Shown piece after piece: positions 10,393 to 32,613 of a DNA stretch of 32,797 bases (positions are counted from its first letter, which is position 1; each line of letters starts with the position of its first letter). Under the pieces are notes generated by a model, which saw only the letters and a list, made by a program, of their open reading frames with translations, was not told the origin of the DNA and ran no database searches. Made by a program: the position numbers and the translations under genes. Origin of the DNA: Blastocatellia bacterium (GTDB lineage: Bacteria; Acidobacteriota; Blastocatellia; UBA7656); assembly GCA_023265195.1 (NCBI GenBank), contig JAHFUG010000018.1, positions 1-32,797 on the forward strand, read 5' to 3'.

Positions 10393-10539
10393 CAGTGGTC
10401 AGTGGTCAGTGGTCAGTGGTCAGTGGCCAGTGGCCAGAGAGCAGGGATCAGTGGCCGGAAGGGGTCAGTGGTCAGCCGGAAATCAGTGGCCGGAAGTCAG
10501 TCGCCAGGGATCGGTGGCCAGAGAGCAGGGATCAGTGGC
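10393..10539 (+). repeat. Degenerate heptanucleotide tandem array (CAGTGGT/CAGTGGC and variants)
   Basis: Read directly: 4x CAGTGGT, 2x CAGTGGC, CAGAGAG, CAGGGAT, CAGTGGC ... CAGTCGC CAGGGAT CGGTGGC CAGAGAG CAGGGAT CAGTGGC. Confidence 0.95.
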
Positions 10540-10693
10540 TGATCCGCTCGGGTTCAAAGGGGCTCAGGCGCTGTGATGAATTGCCAGAGTCGTAAGATTT
10601 ACTGTCCGAATAAACTACCAAAGGAGACCAGTCCTTGCATTATCGTAGGTTCGTGAGGCTCCGACTAGCCACTGTCTTTACTTCCGGGCGCTG

Positions 10694-10721
10694 GCCACTG
10701 CCCACTGGCCACTGACCACTG
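10694..10721 (-). repeat. Inverted-orientation copies of the same heptamer (GCCACTG CCCACTG GCCACTG ACCACTG)
   Basis: Four contiguous heptamers, reverse complement of the 10393-10539 unit, ending 4 nt before the rapZ ATG. Confidence 0.95.
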
Positions 10722-17693: not shown

Positions 17694-18515
17694 ATGAAGA
17701 GGTACATTGTATCGGCTCTAGTGATCGCCGTGGCTATGGCGTCAGTGATAGGAATGATGATGAGGCCGGCCCGCGCCGCAACCCTCGTGTTCACGGCTCA
17801 GTTGCTTGCGGGCAATGAGGTGGCTCCAGTCGCTGTCTCGCCCTCCGAATCAGGTTGCAACGGCACCGCGATCGTCACCCTCGACACAACCGCAAACACC
17901 GCTACGTTCGTTGTCACGGGCGGGGGCTTGCCAAACGGCGATGAGCTCATTCTGGCGCACATTCACCAGGGTGGTTCGACCGTGAACGGCGGAGTCGTTG
18001 TTGATTCCGGACTCACGCCTTCAACTCCCATCGTAGTCAGCGGGGGCGGTTTCTCATTCACCCGCACCGGTCTCACGGTTAGCCCGGCGACGGCGACCGC
18101 CATCGTGGCCAACCCTGCAGGCTTCTACTTCAATATTCACTCGATTCTAAGCACCAACGGATGTGCTCGCGGACAGCTTGTGGCCCAGGCGGGTCCCGGC
18201 GCCTTGCCGGCCCCGACACTGTCGCAGTGGGGAGCGATATTGATGACTTTGCTCATCATCGCCGCCTGCACCTTCTTCATGGTTGGACGAGCGAAGATGG
18301 CGACAGCCGTTGGCGGGGCCGCTGGTATTACCATCGGCGCGGGCAAAGCCATCGATTGGCAGTTGCTCGCCAAGGTCACGATGTATGTCGAGACGCTGAC
18401 TCTGCTGGTGCTGTTTGCGCTAAGGGCGAACGCGGTTGATTTCGCCGGCGCTCTTACATCCGCGCTTGCGGTGGCGTTTATCATCCATTTGCTGATTCGC
18501 AATTCACGCCGCTGA
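17694..18515 (+). CDS. CHRD-domain protein with internal IPTL-type exosortase signal and extra C-terminal membrane tail
   Basis: Signal peptide; CHRD-type motifs HIHQGG...GFYFNIHS...GCARGQLV; APTLSQWGAILMTLLIIAACTFFMVGR at aa 173-199 (about 18213-18290); then about 74 more residues with hydrophobic segments. AAGGAGG upstream of ATG. Confidence 0.85.
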   Translation: MKRYIVSALVIAVAMASVIGMMMRPARAATLVFTAQLLAGNEVAPVAVSPSESGCNGTAIVTLDTTANTATFVVTGGGLPNGDELILAHIHQGGSTVNGGVVVDSGLTPSTPIVVSGGGFSFTRTGLTVSPATATAIVANPAGFYFNIHSILSTNGCARGQLVAQAGPGALPAPTLSQWGAILMTLLIIAACTFFMVGRAKMATAVGGAAGITIGAGKAIDWQLLAKVTMYVETLTLLVLFALRANAVDFAGALTSALAVAFIIHLLIRNSRR

Positions 18516-18564
18516 CGGCGCGAGTCGTCGAATAAGTTCGAGAAAGCGAAGACTGGATAGAATT

Positions 18565-18611
18565 GAAAGCAGAACACGGCGGCCGTCAAGATGGCGCAGT
18601 GTTCTGCTTTC
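18565..18611 (+). terminator. Perfect 13-bp inverted repeat between CHRD gene and exosortase gene (terminator/attenuator-like, no strong T-tract)
   Basis: GAAAGCAGAACAC (18565-18577), 21-nt loop, GTGTTCTGCTTTC (18599-18611). Confidence 0.6.
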
Positions 18612-18635
18612 GTCACTATTAGAGTTCTCATACAA

Positions 18636-19193
18636 ATGCAGGCGGCCCATTCCTTAAAGACATTCTTCAGCGCGAACCAGAAGGCGTTGCGCTTCCTGCT
18701 GCTCTTTGGGGTCATATTTGGCGCACTCTATTTCTTGTTCGGACTAGCTCCCGGCGTCCGGTTCGGCATAATAAAGCCCTACACCAGGTTTCTCGCGAAG
18801 GGCGTCGTGGCCATAATTAACCTCTTCGGCGCGGGGGCATGGGCGGATGGGACCGTGGTGACGTCCGATCGCTTCTCGATCAACATCGCAATGGGCTGCG
18901 ACGGTGTTGAAGCGTCCAGCCTGCTGGCGGCCGGCGTTCTTGCTTTTCCAACAACGTGGCGCGCGAAAGCGATTGGGCTAGGCGTTGGAATGCCTTTGAT
19001 TCATGTCATCAACATATTGAGACTGGTGGGACTTTACTACGCCGGTTTATTTCTTCCGTCGGTGGTCGAAGGAATTCACGTTTACGTAGCTCAAACCATC
19101 GTCATCCTGCTCTCGATGGCAATATTGGTGTTTTGGCTTGAACGAGTAGCTACGAGGCGCCCCCATGCTTTGAACCCGTCATCTTCCGATTAG
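18636..19193 (+). CDS. Exosortase/archaeosortase family protein (exosortase H-like by context)
   Basis: Multi-TM; catalytic-type motifs MGCDGVEASSLLAAGVLAF (Cys), HVINILRLVGLYYAG (Arg), EGIHVYVAQTIVILL (His). Start moved to ATG 18636 because the ATG at 18591 lies in the hairpin loop. Confidence 0.87.
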   Translation: MQAAHSLKTFFSANQKALRFLLLFGVIFGALYFLFGLAPGVRFGIIKPYTRFLAKGVVAIINLFGAGAWADGTVVTSDRFSINIAMGCDGVEASSLLAAGVLAFPTTWRAKAIGLGVGMPLIHVINILRLVGLYYAGLFLPSVVEGIHVYVAQTIVILLSMAILVFWLERVATRRPHALNPSSSD

Positions 19194-23960: not shown

Positions 23961-23994
23961 ACACAAAAGAAAAAGGGGATGGTCTCCCATCCCC
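23961..23994 (-). terminator. Rho-independent terminator of the KKGGA micro-gene
   Basis: On the minus strand: GGGGATGG-GAGA-CCATCCCC followed by TTTTTCTTTTGTGT; perfect 8-bp stem, 4-nt loop. Confidence 0.85.
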
Positions 23995-24036
23995 GCGTTC
24001 TCACACAGAGAACCCCCGTTTTGCGTGGCGGCGAAG

Positions 24037-24135
24037 TTATCTCTTCTTGGCGCCGCCCTTCTTGGCGCCGCCCTTCTTGGCGCCGCCCTTCTTGGCGCCG
24101 CCTTTCTTAGCGCCACCCTTCTTTGCAGTTGCCAT
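24037..24135 (-). CDS. 32-aa lysine-rich pentapeptide-repeat protein MATA(KKGGA)5KKR
   Basis: Own translation: ATG GCA ACT GCA then five KKGGA units, AAG AAG AGA TAA. Preceded by AGGAAAGGAG and a consensus promoter, followed by a terminator. Below the ORF-track size cutoff. Confidence 0.85.
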   Translation of the reverse strand: MATAKKGGAKKGGAKKGGAKKGGAKKGGAKKR

Positions 24136-24171
24136 AGCGTATGTTTCTCCTTTCCTTTAGATTTTGTCTCA

Positions 24172-24206
24172 TACACAAGATGCTGTGCTGCTTTTGCTCT
24201 TGTGTA
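24172..24206 (-). promoter_or_regulatory. 5'-leader stem-loop of the KKGGA gene
   Basis: TACACAAGA (24172-24180), 17-nt spacer, TCTTGTGTA (24198-24206), perfect 9-bp arms. Confidence 0.65.
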
Positions 24207-24222
24207 CTAGTGTAAATGACAC

Positions 24223-24237
24223 ACAACATATTGTTGT
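24223..24237. promoter_or_regulatory. Operator-like 15-bp palindrome at the -10/+1 region
   Basis: ACAACA-TAT-TGTTGT, perfect dyad touching the -10 element. Confidence 0.6.
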
Positions 24238-24265
24238 ATATAGATACATGTTGCATGCTTGTCAA
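24237..24265 (-). promoter_or_regulatory. Consensus-like sigma-70 promoter of the KKGGA gene
   Basis: Minus strand TTGACA, 17-bp spacer AGCATGCAACATGTATC, TATATA. Confidence 0.8.
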
Positions 24266-28206: not shown

Positions 28207-30285
28207 GTGATCAACACAGATCTGAACCAATCTACAATGACTGACACCGAAAACAACCAGACCGGCCGGCCGGCGACGCCTTTCTGGATGGGTCCGCTCG
28301 CCATCACGGTGATGGGCGTTCTGGCCTACGCGAACAGCTTTCAAGGTCCCTTTATCTTTGACGACGTGTTGATGATAGTGCGCAACGAAGGCATACGTCG
28401 GCTTTGGCCGCCGTGGCGTTCAATGCTTGCGCCCTTCATGGTCTCGAGACCGTTGGTTCAATTGTCGCTTGCCGTCAACTATGCGATCAGCGGAATGAAT
28501 CCCTGGAGCTATCATGTTCTCAATTTGCTGATTCACATCCTCGCCGCGCTGGCGCTGTTTGGCGTCGTACGGCGCACTCTGTCGAGCGCAACGTTGCGAG
28601 ACCGTTTCGGGCGCCGTTCGTTCGCTCTGGCTCTCGGCGTTTCTCTAATTTGGATGGTTCACCCGCTGCAGACCGGGTCAGTCACATATGTTATTCAAAG
28701 ATGCGAATCGCTGATGGGCTTCTTTTATTTTGCGACTCTCTATTGCGCGATCAGGAGCTTCGATTCCCGCAAGAAAGGATTATGGTTCGCGGCGGCCGCG
28801 GCGGCCTGCGCCGGAGGCATTCTGTCGAAGCAGATCATGGCGACTGGTCCGATCGTCGTACTACTGTACGACTTCATGTTCGAGTCAGGCTCATTCAAGG
28901 CGGCATGGGAGCGTCGAAAGCAACTCTACATTGGGCTGGCGGCGTCGTGGGTTCTGTTGGGAGCTACGCTCTTAGCCTCTCCGTTGAACCAGACGGCCGG
29001 GTTCGAAGTGAAGAATATCTCTTCGTTCGACTATCTGAAGTCAGAGTTTGGCGTAATCGTGCATTACCTCCGGCTGACTATCTGGCCGGACGGCCTGGTG
29101 CTCGATTATCTTTGGCCCAAGGCGGAAAGCGCAGGCCAGATTATTCCCTTCGCCATTCCCATACTGGCCTTGGCGGCGGGGACAATCTGGGCGATCATAA
29201 ATCGGCGAGCCATCGGATTTCTGGGAGCCTGGTTCTTCATTATTTTGTCGATGACGTCGAGCATAATGCCGTTTTCCGATCTCGCCTTCGAGCACCGGAT
29301 GTATCTGCCGCTGGCCGCGCCGGTGGCGTTGTTCGTGATTGGCGGATACGCTCTAGGACCACGCTTGTTCAAGCGGATGTCGCTTGCGGCCGCGCAGCAA
29401 GAGCAGCTTGCAAAGTCGGTTGGCGCCGCGCTGTTAGTAATAGTAGTGGCGCTGTTAGCGACTCAAACTATTCGCCGGAACATGCAATACCAGAGCGATC
29501 TTGTCATGTGGGTCGACGTGGTTAAGAAGCGGCCGGAGAATTCGCGCGGCCATAACACGCTTGGCGAAATCCTGGCGTTGCGCGGCCTGATCGGAGAAGC
29601 CGCCGAGGAGTTCAGACTGGCTTGCAAGTACAATCCGGACTACGTGGAGGCGCATGCCAACCTGGGCTCCGCCTTGTGGCTAATTGGAAACATTGAAGAG
29701 AGCAAGATAGAACTCAACGAGGGAGTGCGGCTCGGCCCGAGGAACGCCTTGGCGCATTACAACCTGGCGATGGCGTTGTCTTCGGAGGGAAAACTCGATG
29801 AAGGGCTCACGCACCTTACGGCGGCCGTAGAATACGACCCGGCCAACATCCTTTATTACGTTAGGCGCGGCGTGTTGCTCGAGCAGAAAGGGAGGTTCGC
29901 CGAGGCGGCCAATGACTTTGTAACCGCGCTCGGGCAGGCGCCTGACTCGTGGGTGGCTCTGAGCCATCTGGCGGTTTCGCTCGCTCTGCAGGATGATCCG
30001 AGCTTGCGCAATACGCGGGAAGCCGAACGCCTGGCTAAGCAGGCCGTCGCGATTTCGAAAGAGACGGAACCGGCGCCGCTTGACGCGTTGGCGGTAGCTT
30101 ATGCCGAGTCGGGGCGATTTCCGGAAGCAGTTCAATTGGAGCAGAGGGCACTCGAACTGGCGTCCGCTTTAAGATACAAGGATTTCATTACGGTGATCGA
30201 AGCTCGCTCTCAGGAATATCGGGCAGGGCGAGTCTGGAGACCACCGGCTTCAGGTCAGACTCCCTCTACGCTCGTTTCGCGTTAG
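28207..30285 (+). CDS. TMTC-like polytopic membrane protein with C-terminal TPR repeats
   Basis: ANSFQGPFIFDDVLMIVRNEGI, SYHVLNLLIHILAALALFGVV, many TM segments, then TPRs (NTLGEILALRGLIGEAAEEFRLACKYNPDYVEAHANLGSALWLIGN). GTG 28207 or ATG 28237 start. Confidence 0.82.
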   Translation: MINTDLNQSTMTDTENNQTGRPATPFWMGPLAITVMGVLAYANSFQGPFIFDDVLMIVRNEGIRRLWPPWRSMLAPFMVSRPLVQLSLAVNYAISGMNPWSYHVLNLLIHILAALALFGVVRRTLSSATLRDRFGRRSFALALGVSLIWMVHPLQTGSVTYVIQRCESLMGFFYFATLYCAIRSFDSRKKGLWFAAAAAACAGGILSKQIMATGPIVVLLYDFMFESGSFKAAWERRKQLYIGLAASWVLLGATLLASPLNQTAGFEVKNISSFDYLKSEFGVIVHYLRLTIWPDGLVLDYLWPKAESAGQIIPFAIPILALAAGTIWAIINRRAIGFLGAWFFIILSMTSSIMPFSDLAFEHRMYLPLAAPVALFVIGGYALGPRLFKRMSLAAAQQEQLAKSVGAALLVIVVALLATQTIRRNMQYQSDLVMWVDVVKKRPENSRGHNTLGEILALRGLIGEAAEEFRLACKYNPDYVEAHANLGSALWLIGNIEESKIELNEGVRLGPRNALAHYNLAMALSSEGKLDEGLTHLTAAVEYDPANILYYVRRGVLLEQKGRFAEAANDFVTALGQAPDSWVALSHLAVSLALQDDPSLRNTREAERLAKQAVAISKETEPAPLDALAVAYAESGRFPEAVQLEQRALELASALRYKDFITVIEARSQEYRAGRVWRPPASGQTPSTLVSR

Positions 30286-30342
30286 GCGTTGGAAATCCTC
30301 CGAGCAGGCCAACGTCGAAAAATAAGTTTCCGGGTTCCGAGG

Positions 30343-30440
30343 GAACTTCACCGCCGAGGCGCAGAGACCGCGGAGAGAGCCGCACAGAGTCAGCCTGCTC
30401 GGCGCTTTCTCCGCGCACTCTGCGTCTCCGCGGTGAGTTC
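30343..30440. mobile_element. Short fold-back repeat element
   Basis: GAACTTCACCGCCGAGGCGCAGAGACCGCGGAGAGAG against right arm reverse complement GAACTCACCGCGGAGACGCAGAGTGCGCGGAGAAAG (one gap, few mismatches). Confidence 0.75.
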
Positions 30441-30567
30441 CACCGTTCAATCTGGTGGGACCTGCGTTCGGCTGACGTATGAAATCAAAAACGGGAAGCA
30501 ACTTCTTTACAGATCCGAAGATCTGCCGCAAGGAGTTTTTAGCGAGCCCTTCGTTTTGACGGAGACC

Positions 30568-32613
30568 ATGATCAAAGAGTCCTTGCCGGCGGATAGCGAA
30601 CCGCGTCCCAGGCGAGTGTTGGCCGCCGCGACGGCGGTTGCGGCCGTGGGCGTGACCGCGTACCTTAACAGCTTTCGCTGTCATTTCATCTTTGACGACT
30701 TCCAGTTCATCGGCAACCGTGAGACCCAGTCGTTGTGGCCGCCGTGGCCGGCGATGTTTTCGCTCCGGCACGTTTCGCGGCCGTTGATTGGCCTGTCGCT
30801 GGCGATCAATCACTCCATCAGCGGATACGACGTCTGGAGCTATCATGCATTGAACTTGTGCATTCACATCCTGGCGGCGCTCGCGCTGTTCGGCGTGGTA
30901 AGAAGGACGCTGCTCACGCCGGCGCTTCGAGAGCGGTTCGGGGAGCGTTCGACTGAATTAGCCGCGGCTGTTGCCTTGATTTGGGTAGCTCACCCGCTCC
31001 AAACGCAGGCGGTCACGTACATAATTCAGCGTTGCGAGTCGCTGATGGGCCTCTTCTACCTGTTGACTCTCTATTGCGCGATTCGAAGCTTCGATTCTTC
31101 GCGAAAGAGATTCTGGATCGCCGCGGCCGTAGTTGCGTGCGGCGCGGGCATGCTGTCCAAAGAGGTGATGATAACCGCTCCCCTGGCGGTATTGCTCTAC
31201 GACGGTTTGTTCTTATCGGGCTCGCTCACTGGAGCGTTGCGCAAGCGTTCGGTCCTATACGCAGGTCTCGTCGGCGCCTGGAGCCTGCTGGCGGCTACGC
31301 ATTTGGCCGCGCCCGTCAATGAGACCGCGGGCTTCGCGGTGACGTCGATTTCGCCCTGGCGCTACCTTGTATCTGAGTTCGGAGTGATCACCCACTACTT
31401 GCGGCTTGCACTGTGGCCGAACAATCTGGTGTTGGACTATGGGTGGCCCGTTGCAACGACTGCAAGTGGCGTTTTACCTTACGCCGTTTTTGTGGGCGCG
31501 CTGGCGGCGGGTGCGATCTGGGCGTTTCTACGCCGAAAGCCGGTGGGGTTCATCGGAGTATGGTTCTTTCTGATCCTCTCGGTTACTTCCAGTTTCATTC
31601 CATTCAAGGACCTGGCGTTCGAGCATCGGATGTACCTTCCCCTTGCGGCCGTGGTGACGATGGCGGTGCTGGGTAGTTACGTTGTGGGCGCGTCGATTCT
31701 TCGCCGCTTCATCTTAGAAGAACAGCAGCGGCTGCAAACAGGCCGGGCGATCGCGTTGGTGATCGTAACGTTGGTTGTCGCATCGGCGGTGTTTCTGACA
31801 CTGAGGCGGAACATCGATTATCAAGACTCTTTCGCTATTTGGAACGACGTGATCCGCAAGCGGCCAGAGAATTCGCGCGCCTATTCGAACCTGGGGAGGG
31901 TTTACATAGCGCGGCGCAACTATGAAGGAGCCCTCATCTGCTTCGCCAAGGCTTGCGAGTACGATGAGCGATCCTGGGTCGCGCAAAGCAATCTGGGTGA
32001 GGTGCTGGTTAGCCTGGGAAAGACCGAAGAGGGTAAGGGTCATTTGCTCGAAGCGTTGCGTCTTCGGCCGAGTTTCGAATTCGCCCACTATAACCTCGGC
32101 AGGGTTCTAGCCGCCGAGGGACAATTCGAAGAAGCCATCGCTCACTTCTCGCAAGCACTGGAAACCGACCCTAATCATGCGCAGGCGTATTGCGCTCGTG
32201 GTCTCGCTCAATCGAAAAAGGGAAACGCGCAGGCGGCGATCAGCGACTACTACAGCGCTGCGCGCATTGATCCGAACTGGTTCGAGCCACTGACCCATTT
32301 GGCTGTTGCGTTGGCCCTGCAGGACGATCCGCGTCTGCGAAATATCGAAGAAGCGTCGCGGCTTGCCGAGCAGGCGGTTGCGATAACAAAGGAACAGGAA
32401 CCGGCCGCGCTTGACGCATTGGCGATCGCTTACGCCGAGTCGGGCCGTTTCCCGGAGGCCGCTCAACTGGAGCAGAAAGCATTCGATCTGGCTGTAAAAG
32501 CAAAGAGCCGGGAACTGCTTGCAGTAGTCGAGAGCCGATTGCGGCAGTATAGAACCGGCCGCGTCTGGAGACCACCGACTTCCGATCTGAGTACAAAGAC
32601 GGCGCCTCGGTAA
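30568..32613 (+). CDS. TMTC-like polytopic membrane protein with C-terminal TPR repeats (tandem paralogue)
   Basis: Strong similarity over full length to 28207-30285 (LNSFRCHFIFDDFQFIGN; SYHALNLCIHILAALALFGVVRRTL; TPRs; ends TGRVWRPPTS vs AGRVWRPPAS). Start at ATG 30568 because the longer ORF (30289) runs through the fold-back element. Confidence 0.82.
   Translation: MIKESLPADSEPRPRRVLAAATAVAAVGVTAYLNSFRCHFIFDDFQFIGNRETQSLWPPWPAMFSLRHVSRPLIGLSLAINHSISGYDVWSYHALNLCIHILAALALFGVVRRTLLTPALRERFGERSTELAAAVALIWVAHPLQTQAVTYIIQRCESLMGLFYLLTLYCAIRSFDSSRKRFWIAAAVVACGAGMLSKEVMITAPLAVLLYDGLFLSGSLTGALRKRSVLYAGLVGAWSLLAATHLAAPVNETAGFAVTSISPWRYLVSEFGVITHYLRLALWPNNLVLDYGWPVATTASGVLPYAVFVGALAAGAIWAFLRRKPVGFIGVWFFLILSVTSSFIPFKDLAFEHRMYLPLAAVVTMAVLGSYVVGASILRRFILEEQQRLQTGRAIALVIVTLVVASAVFLTLRRNIDYQDSFAIWNDVIRKRPENSRAYSNLGRVYIARRNYEGALICFAKACEYDERSWVAQSNLGEVLVSLGKTEEGKGHLLEALRLRPSFEFAHYNLGRVLAAEGQFEEAIAHFSQALETDPNHAQAYCARGLAQSKKGNAQAAISDYYSAARIDPNWFEPLTHLAVALALQDDPRLRNIEEASRLAEQAVAITKEQEPAALDALAIAYAESGRFPEAAQLEQKAFDLAVKAKSRELLAVVESRLRQYRTGRVWRPPTSDLSTKTAPR

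Follow-up and report, generated by a model that had tools for sequence, protein, structure and literature searches.

The question raised by this locus is whether a 32-residue reading frame composed almost entirely of lysine, glycine and alanine codons is a gene, and what its product, MATAKKGGA(KKGGA)4KKR, would then do. The frame lies on the minus strand of the window, a 32,797-nucleotide stretch of a Blastocatellia genome, within a unit that has a promoter, a leader hairpin, a ribosome site and a terminator of its own, and all the elements listed in a preliminary description were found in place on that strand. The -35 element TTGACA (24260..24265), which opens every aligned leader, is followed by a 17-nt spacer and a -10-like element, TATATA (24237..24242), conserved as TATAxx in 74/75 copies. 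The promoter as first described stands in its TTGACA, its 17-nt spacing and its conserved TATA, but TATATA lacks the final T of the consensus, which is why a generic promoter scan of the window did not list it. The 15-bp palindrome ACAACAATATGTTGT, read in the window sequence at 24223-24237, encloses a 10-bp dyad core, CAA-N4-TTG (24224..24233), that straddles the predicted start at ~24229. Downstream lie a covarying 9-bp leader stem-loop (24172..24206) with arms TACACAAGA (24206-24198) and TCTTGTGTA (24180-24172), a Shine-Dalgarno stretch, AGGAAAGGAG (24147..24156), conserved in relatives as AAAGGAG, and the 32-aa micro-ORF MATAKKGGAKKGGAKKGGAKKGGAKKGGAKKR (24037..24135; codons 24135-24040, stop 24039-24037), which has orthologues and exhibits synonymous bias. 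The stop is followed by a 3'UTR hairpin, GTTCTC-TGTGT-GAGAAC (23997..24013), predicted in the fold and near-identical in the 7 copies of the window's family, and by an intrinsic terminator, GGGGATGG-GAGA-CCATCCCC with a T-rich tail (23965..23994; stem 23994-23975), which recurs in relatives as a stem-loop and then a T run. Independent repeat detection recovered the 15-bp tandem DNA repeat at 24043-24123 (5.4 copies, 93% match), and the window transcript fold has a z of -6.4 against shuffles, much of which is supplied by the repeat itself. The window's own genome contains one copy of the micro-gene.

A protein-level search of 58 relatives recovered the micro-gene, together with its flanks, in six genomes. 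At the DNA level the closest copy, from the same genus, differs by five synonymous changes and specifies the same 32 residues; the other copies keep MATAKK and KKR, with GGA replaced by AAA, PAA or ST, or with repeats lost. A covariance model spanning the promoter through ATGGCAACTGCA (R1) matched 67/162 class genomes, almost always once per genome, and this recurrence of the whole unit shows that it is not a product of chance. The ORFs beneath the R1 matches were all read and are typically 22-60 aa long and of the form MATKK...KKR, for example MATKKKAAKKATKKKAAKKSAKKR. Relatives of the peptide mostly span 12 to ~90 residues, and the longest versions, of up to ~167 aa, occur in one family, probably Chloracidobacterium. 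As had been predicted, promoter, hairpin, ribosome site and terminator are kept in related genomes while repeat number and spacer residues vary, and the opposite case, a broken frame behind retained hairpins, did not emerge as a pattern: the K-rich frame is intact in nearly all complete copies. Copies that depart from this lie on contigs that are truncated or contain Ns, or belong to one family whose frame is probably irregular (L092, L093, L095). In that family the frame appears broken or displaced towards its end, and K-rich codons continue past the stop; assembly error, frameshift and decay are the candidate causes.

The retrained model (R2) gave no match in ~350 sampled Acidobacteriota genomes outside the class. 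Presence beyond Acidobacteriota was assessed by the exact Blastocatellia leader pattern only, and this leader-stem pattern returned 49 matches in GTDB r220 (84,980 species), of which 42 are acidobacterial, Pyrinomonas methylaliphatogenes K22 among them, and 7 are unrelated chance matches. An ORF start could be read in the stretch examined, and is K-rich, for 41 of the 42. A phylum-wide protein search at E <= 1e-4 was affected by composition correction, which hid even known copies. Within Pyrinomonadaceae, genus g11 yielded no unit match although its genomes are nearly complete, and the unit is therefore not indispensable in every lineage. A genome of this genus (G103), which lacks the micro-gene leader, encodes at L154 a 267-aa H1-like protein with the start MATKKTTSK, a possible functional replacement of the micro-gene. 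Second, weaker leader copies at L079 (G150) and L098 (G016) precede a different repetitive basic peptide, such as MATRKLPKLTKIPPKLPKLTKIPPK, and these peptides appear to be a K/P/L-rich paralogous family that has a similar promoter; a paralogue with a diverged start, MVLKSSTGGGKKKTTKKSTKKAGTKKSAKKR, sits behind a similar leader at L097 (G005).

Across 67 ORFs, the peptide consists of K (39%), A (26.5%), G (14%), S (6%), T (6%) and P (3%), which together account for ~95% of residues; an acidic residue is present in 1/67 and a KKR end in 41/67. Ten independent sister pairs from the class exhibit 54 synonymous and 30 nonsynonymous changes against 18.4 synonymous expected (p = 9e-17, from a test that ignores transition bias and base-composition bias), and most of the nonsynonymous ones exchange A, G, S, T or P for one another. 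Indels between relatives keep the frame, and the Shine-Dalgarno sequence and start are conserved. Given the strong synonymous bias, the frame is translated, and the substitution patterns show that purifying selection maintains a chain rich in lysine and almost without acidic residues.

A loose pattern of Shine-Dalgarno, MAT and Lys-Lys matched in 66/392 genomes of the phylum, the matches including some long unrelated proteins (ribosomal protein S11, RecA) and many K-rich ORFs of 12-24 aa that belong to other families. A second clade is formed by 28 units, all from a large family in another class (probably Acidobacteriaceae), which have in common the promoter TTGACA, 16-18 nt, TATAC, a 5'-end hairpin, CTGCAA/TTGCAG, and GGGAGAA ahead of the ATG. 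This hairpin differs from the Blastocatellia leader and covaries in its own right (three pairs, seven cells). A model of the second-clade leader alone, with no ORF (R3), matched in 103/120 family genomes, once per genome except in one genome, and 37 of 40 further R3 matches taken across the score range, weak ones included, encode a K-rich peptide of 12-26 aa, the shortest exemplified by the 12 residues of MATKKKAKKKKH. The preliminary description had anticipated that gene callers would miss the window's micro-gene, and for versions of 12-26 aa this is likely. The second clade exhibits 127 synonymous and 54 nonsynonymous changes where 35.7 synonymous are expected, and so the synonymous excess and kept frame that mark protein-coding sequence are found in both clades. 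Common ancestry of the micro-genes of the two clades is tentatively favoured over convergence because the MATKK start, the single copy and a similar architecture are common to both, the homology being judged on very short, low-complexity chains.

Among known families, the window protein aligns with the profiles of HC2 (PF07382; 16.2 bits, E 0.012, gathering cut-off 40 bits), the Burkholderia-type histone H1-like family (NF038053; 13.8 bits, and 11.9-12.1 for longer relatives, cut-off 80 bits) and the Rv3852 family (NF050153; 16.2 bits, E 0.011, cut-off 100 bits), all far under the cut-offs and driven by composition. With Mycobacterium Rv3852 the peptide shares a Lys/Ala-rich basic stretch, but the match is confined to that stretch. 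The C-terminal tail of eukaryotic linker histone H1 is K/A/P/G-rich, disordered and nearly without acidic residues. The peptide resembles this tail in its K/A/P/G-rich composition and near absence of acidic residues; unlike linker histone H1, it has no globular domain and is the product of a bacterial micro-gene, and no homology is claimed. Chlamydia Hc2 (HctB) and Bordetella BpH1 are similarly low-complexity, basic proteins with Lys-rich pentamers in variable repeat number (PMC2848022). The pentamers of Hc2 comprise two basic and three mainly Ala residues and vary in number (PMC2848022), and the window's family possesses the same pattern as KKGGA or KKAAA, also with a variable repeat number. 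This pentamer and the sub-threshold profile matches suggest a polycation of the histone-H1-tail type. Unlike Hc2 (165-237 aa), the peptide is mostly 12-90 aa long, and unlike both Hc2 and BpH1 the micro-gene falls below the family cut-offs, lies behind conserved structured leaders and belongs to Acidobacteriota. By analogy, the peptide probably works like an H1 tail, which is a statement about mode of action and not about membership of the H1-like proteins. A search of the available literature for the peptide motif or for the gene in Acidobacteria returned nothing relevant and no earlier description, and the micro-gene is apparently undescribed.

On balance, the locus is rather likely to be a stand-alone, strongly promoted micro-gene for a histone-tail-like nucleic-acid-binding polycation. 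A strong housekeeping-type promoter would drive a transcript shielded by its 5' structure (the leader stem-loop and a 5'-3' panhandle), and efficient translation would let the peptide accumulate. The product would be a disordered polycation with lysine doublets every 4-5 residues, like an excised H1 or Hc2 tail, that would bind DNA and/or RNA electrostatically, neutralise phosphate charge and compact the nucleoid or structured RNA. Selection would act only on charge, spacing and the lack of acidic residues, and consequently spacer residues would drift (GG, AA, PA, ST) while the lysines stay; the start-site dyad would serve as a repressor or autoregulatory site. A nucleic-acid counter-ion is proposed because the positive charge is dense and even, acidic residues are absent and the chain is too short and simple to fold, and because the pentamer region of Hc2 and BpH1 is the best precedent. 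The likeness to a histone tail, also suggested in the preliminary description, is plausible by analogy, and we infer abundance, mRNA protection, binding, a nucleoid role and a regulator acting at the dyad. Conservation of the promoter and leader would be consistent with an abundant, regulated product. As a counterpoint, all H1-like proteins whose DNA binding has been measured are much larger than a 12-aa peptide. An alternative is a cytoplasmic polycation that acts elsewhere, as a ribosome or RNA chaperone, a polyamine-like stress buffer or a condensate former instead of a nucleoid protein. It would draw on the same composition evidence as DNA binding, and of the two chlamydial proteins Hc1 and Hc2, Hc2 is the better binder of RNA (PMC2848022); neither a domain nor a partner gene points to ribosomes, however, and this reading is considered unlikely.

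The spacing between -35 and -10 is 17 nt in 72/75 copies, and the CAA-N4-TTG core lies just downstream of the -10 in 68/75. The 15-bp palindrome first described at the start is present in the window but limited to the window's family, and the element found class-wide is the 10-bp core. The inner pair of this core is A/T in 56 copies and T/A in 5, the pattern expected of a symmetric protein site, and the start-site dyad is the likeliest place for a repressor or for autoregulation to act. In 68 leader sequences, aligned by fitting to the model, 93.6% of stem cells are paired, double changes occur at 4/9 pairs and 0/500 shuffles reach the score; a six-sequence MAFFT alignment already contains two double changes in the stem. 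The Pyrinomonadaceae transcript opens with UGUGCGCC, which can base-pair with GGCGCACA, a motif conserved in the 3'UTR beyond the ORF, and RNAalifold recovers this helix without being prompted. Its variable position is paired in 38/39 sequences, in C-G, U-A and U-G forms, but the double changes derive from ~two lineages, and the complementarity may therefore reflect a pair of inverted protein sites instead of an RNA helix. The 5'-3' pairing is absent from the window's family, and general 5'-end/3'UTR duplex energies were not significant against shuffles, the specific Pyrinomonadaceae helix alone having survived. Rfam gave no match in the window, and otherwise only a chance-level PrrB_RsmZ alignment (13.9 bits vs a gathering score of 44). 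The ompA leader of Escherichia coli is a 5' stem-loop upstream of the ribosome site that stabilises its mRNA; the leader stem-loop described here likewise lies near the 5' end and upstream of the ribosome site, but it is unrelated in sequence and structure.

A structured regulatory or dual-function RNA with the peptide as a secondary product would account for the covariation with which the leader stem and 3'UTR motifs are conserved, and across the class the leader is easier to recognise than the peptide. Such an RNA would not be expected to have a strong synonymous bias in two clades, a conserved Shine-Dalgarno and start with frame-keeping indels, or the same type of peptide behind unrelated leaders in another class, and so the RNA is improbable as the main product.

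Neighbouring genes stay the same within a family but change from one family to another, indicating that the micro-gene is inherited as an independent unit. Identities of the neighbours rest on reading their sequences and, for two genes of the window, additionally on NCBIfam. In Pyrinomonadaceae, pilus-type genes lie upstream of the unit and TrmL-like and TypA-like genes downstream; in the window's family, genes for a PHP phosphoesterase and an LpxL-like acyltransferase adjoin it on the opposite strand and are not co-directional; and the next gene after the unit is a mannose-6-phosphate-isomerase-like cupin gene in several members of three families. These comparisons across genomes show the unit to be stand-alone, monocistronic, usually single-copy and ancient. 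A phage origin was rejected, PHROGs matches being at chance level only. Poly-lysine can slow ribosomes, and the very high lysine content would suit a leader peptide that senses lysine or translation and, by attenuation or stalling, controls the gene downstream. The unit has its own terminator, however, the next genes vary by family, and the lysine codons are spread along the ORF without clustering. An attenuator role, which would place a terminator or antiterminator immediately before a conserved regulated gene, was rejected on synteny, and control of a downstream gene is very improbable. A repeat expansion artefact or chance ORF, which the near-perfect 15-bp repeat of the window copy might suggest, is refuted by the comparative data, namely by non-repetitive orthologues that keep the flanks and the frame, and by the synonymous bias.

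Other features were observed in the window. A protein encoded at 17694-19193 (+) ends in a sorting-type tail, PTLSQWG...LL, which by eye is IPTL-CTERM-like, with exosortase H (TIGR04177, 107 bits vs cut-off 86) directly downstream, and the two are likely an exosortase/substrate pair. Two large, clearly related membrane proteins encoded side by side (692 and 774 aa; 28207-32613, +), each with TPR repeats at its C-terminus, are apparently a tandem duplication, and tandem 7-bp repeats (CAGTGGT at 10393-10505; CTGGCCA at 10691-10721) lie between HPF-like and RapZ-like genes.

In its broadest form, the polycation proposal is held more tentatively, at somewhat less than an even chance: Acidobacteriota, a large phylum of soil bacteria, would carry a near-universal, essentially unannotated micro-gene for an oligo-lysine counter-ion, as short as MATKKKAKKKKH, that would act on the nucleoid or RNA as a minimal 'histone tail without a histone' and be kept at a high level by lineage-specific structured leaders that would have been replaced or remodelled around an unchanging type of peptide. 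Most members of a large family have one copy of the gene per genome, and it is widespread in a second class of the phylum; it seemingly escaped notice because neither gene callers nor homology searches can cope with so short and repetitive a product. The covariance models R1-R3 are ready for annotating it. No literature on nucleoid proteins in Acidobacteriota was found, the topic being hardly studied in the phylum. With the micro-gene, nature provides a clean test of whether lysine-rich tails that lack any folded domain organise nucleic acids in bacteria; if its product is abundant, the micro-gene would also bear on the nucleoid biology of Acidobacteriota.
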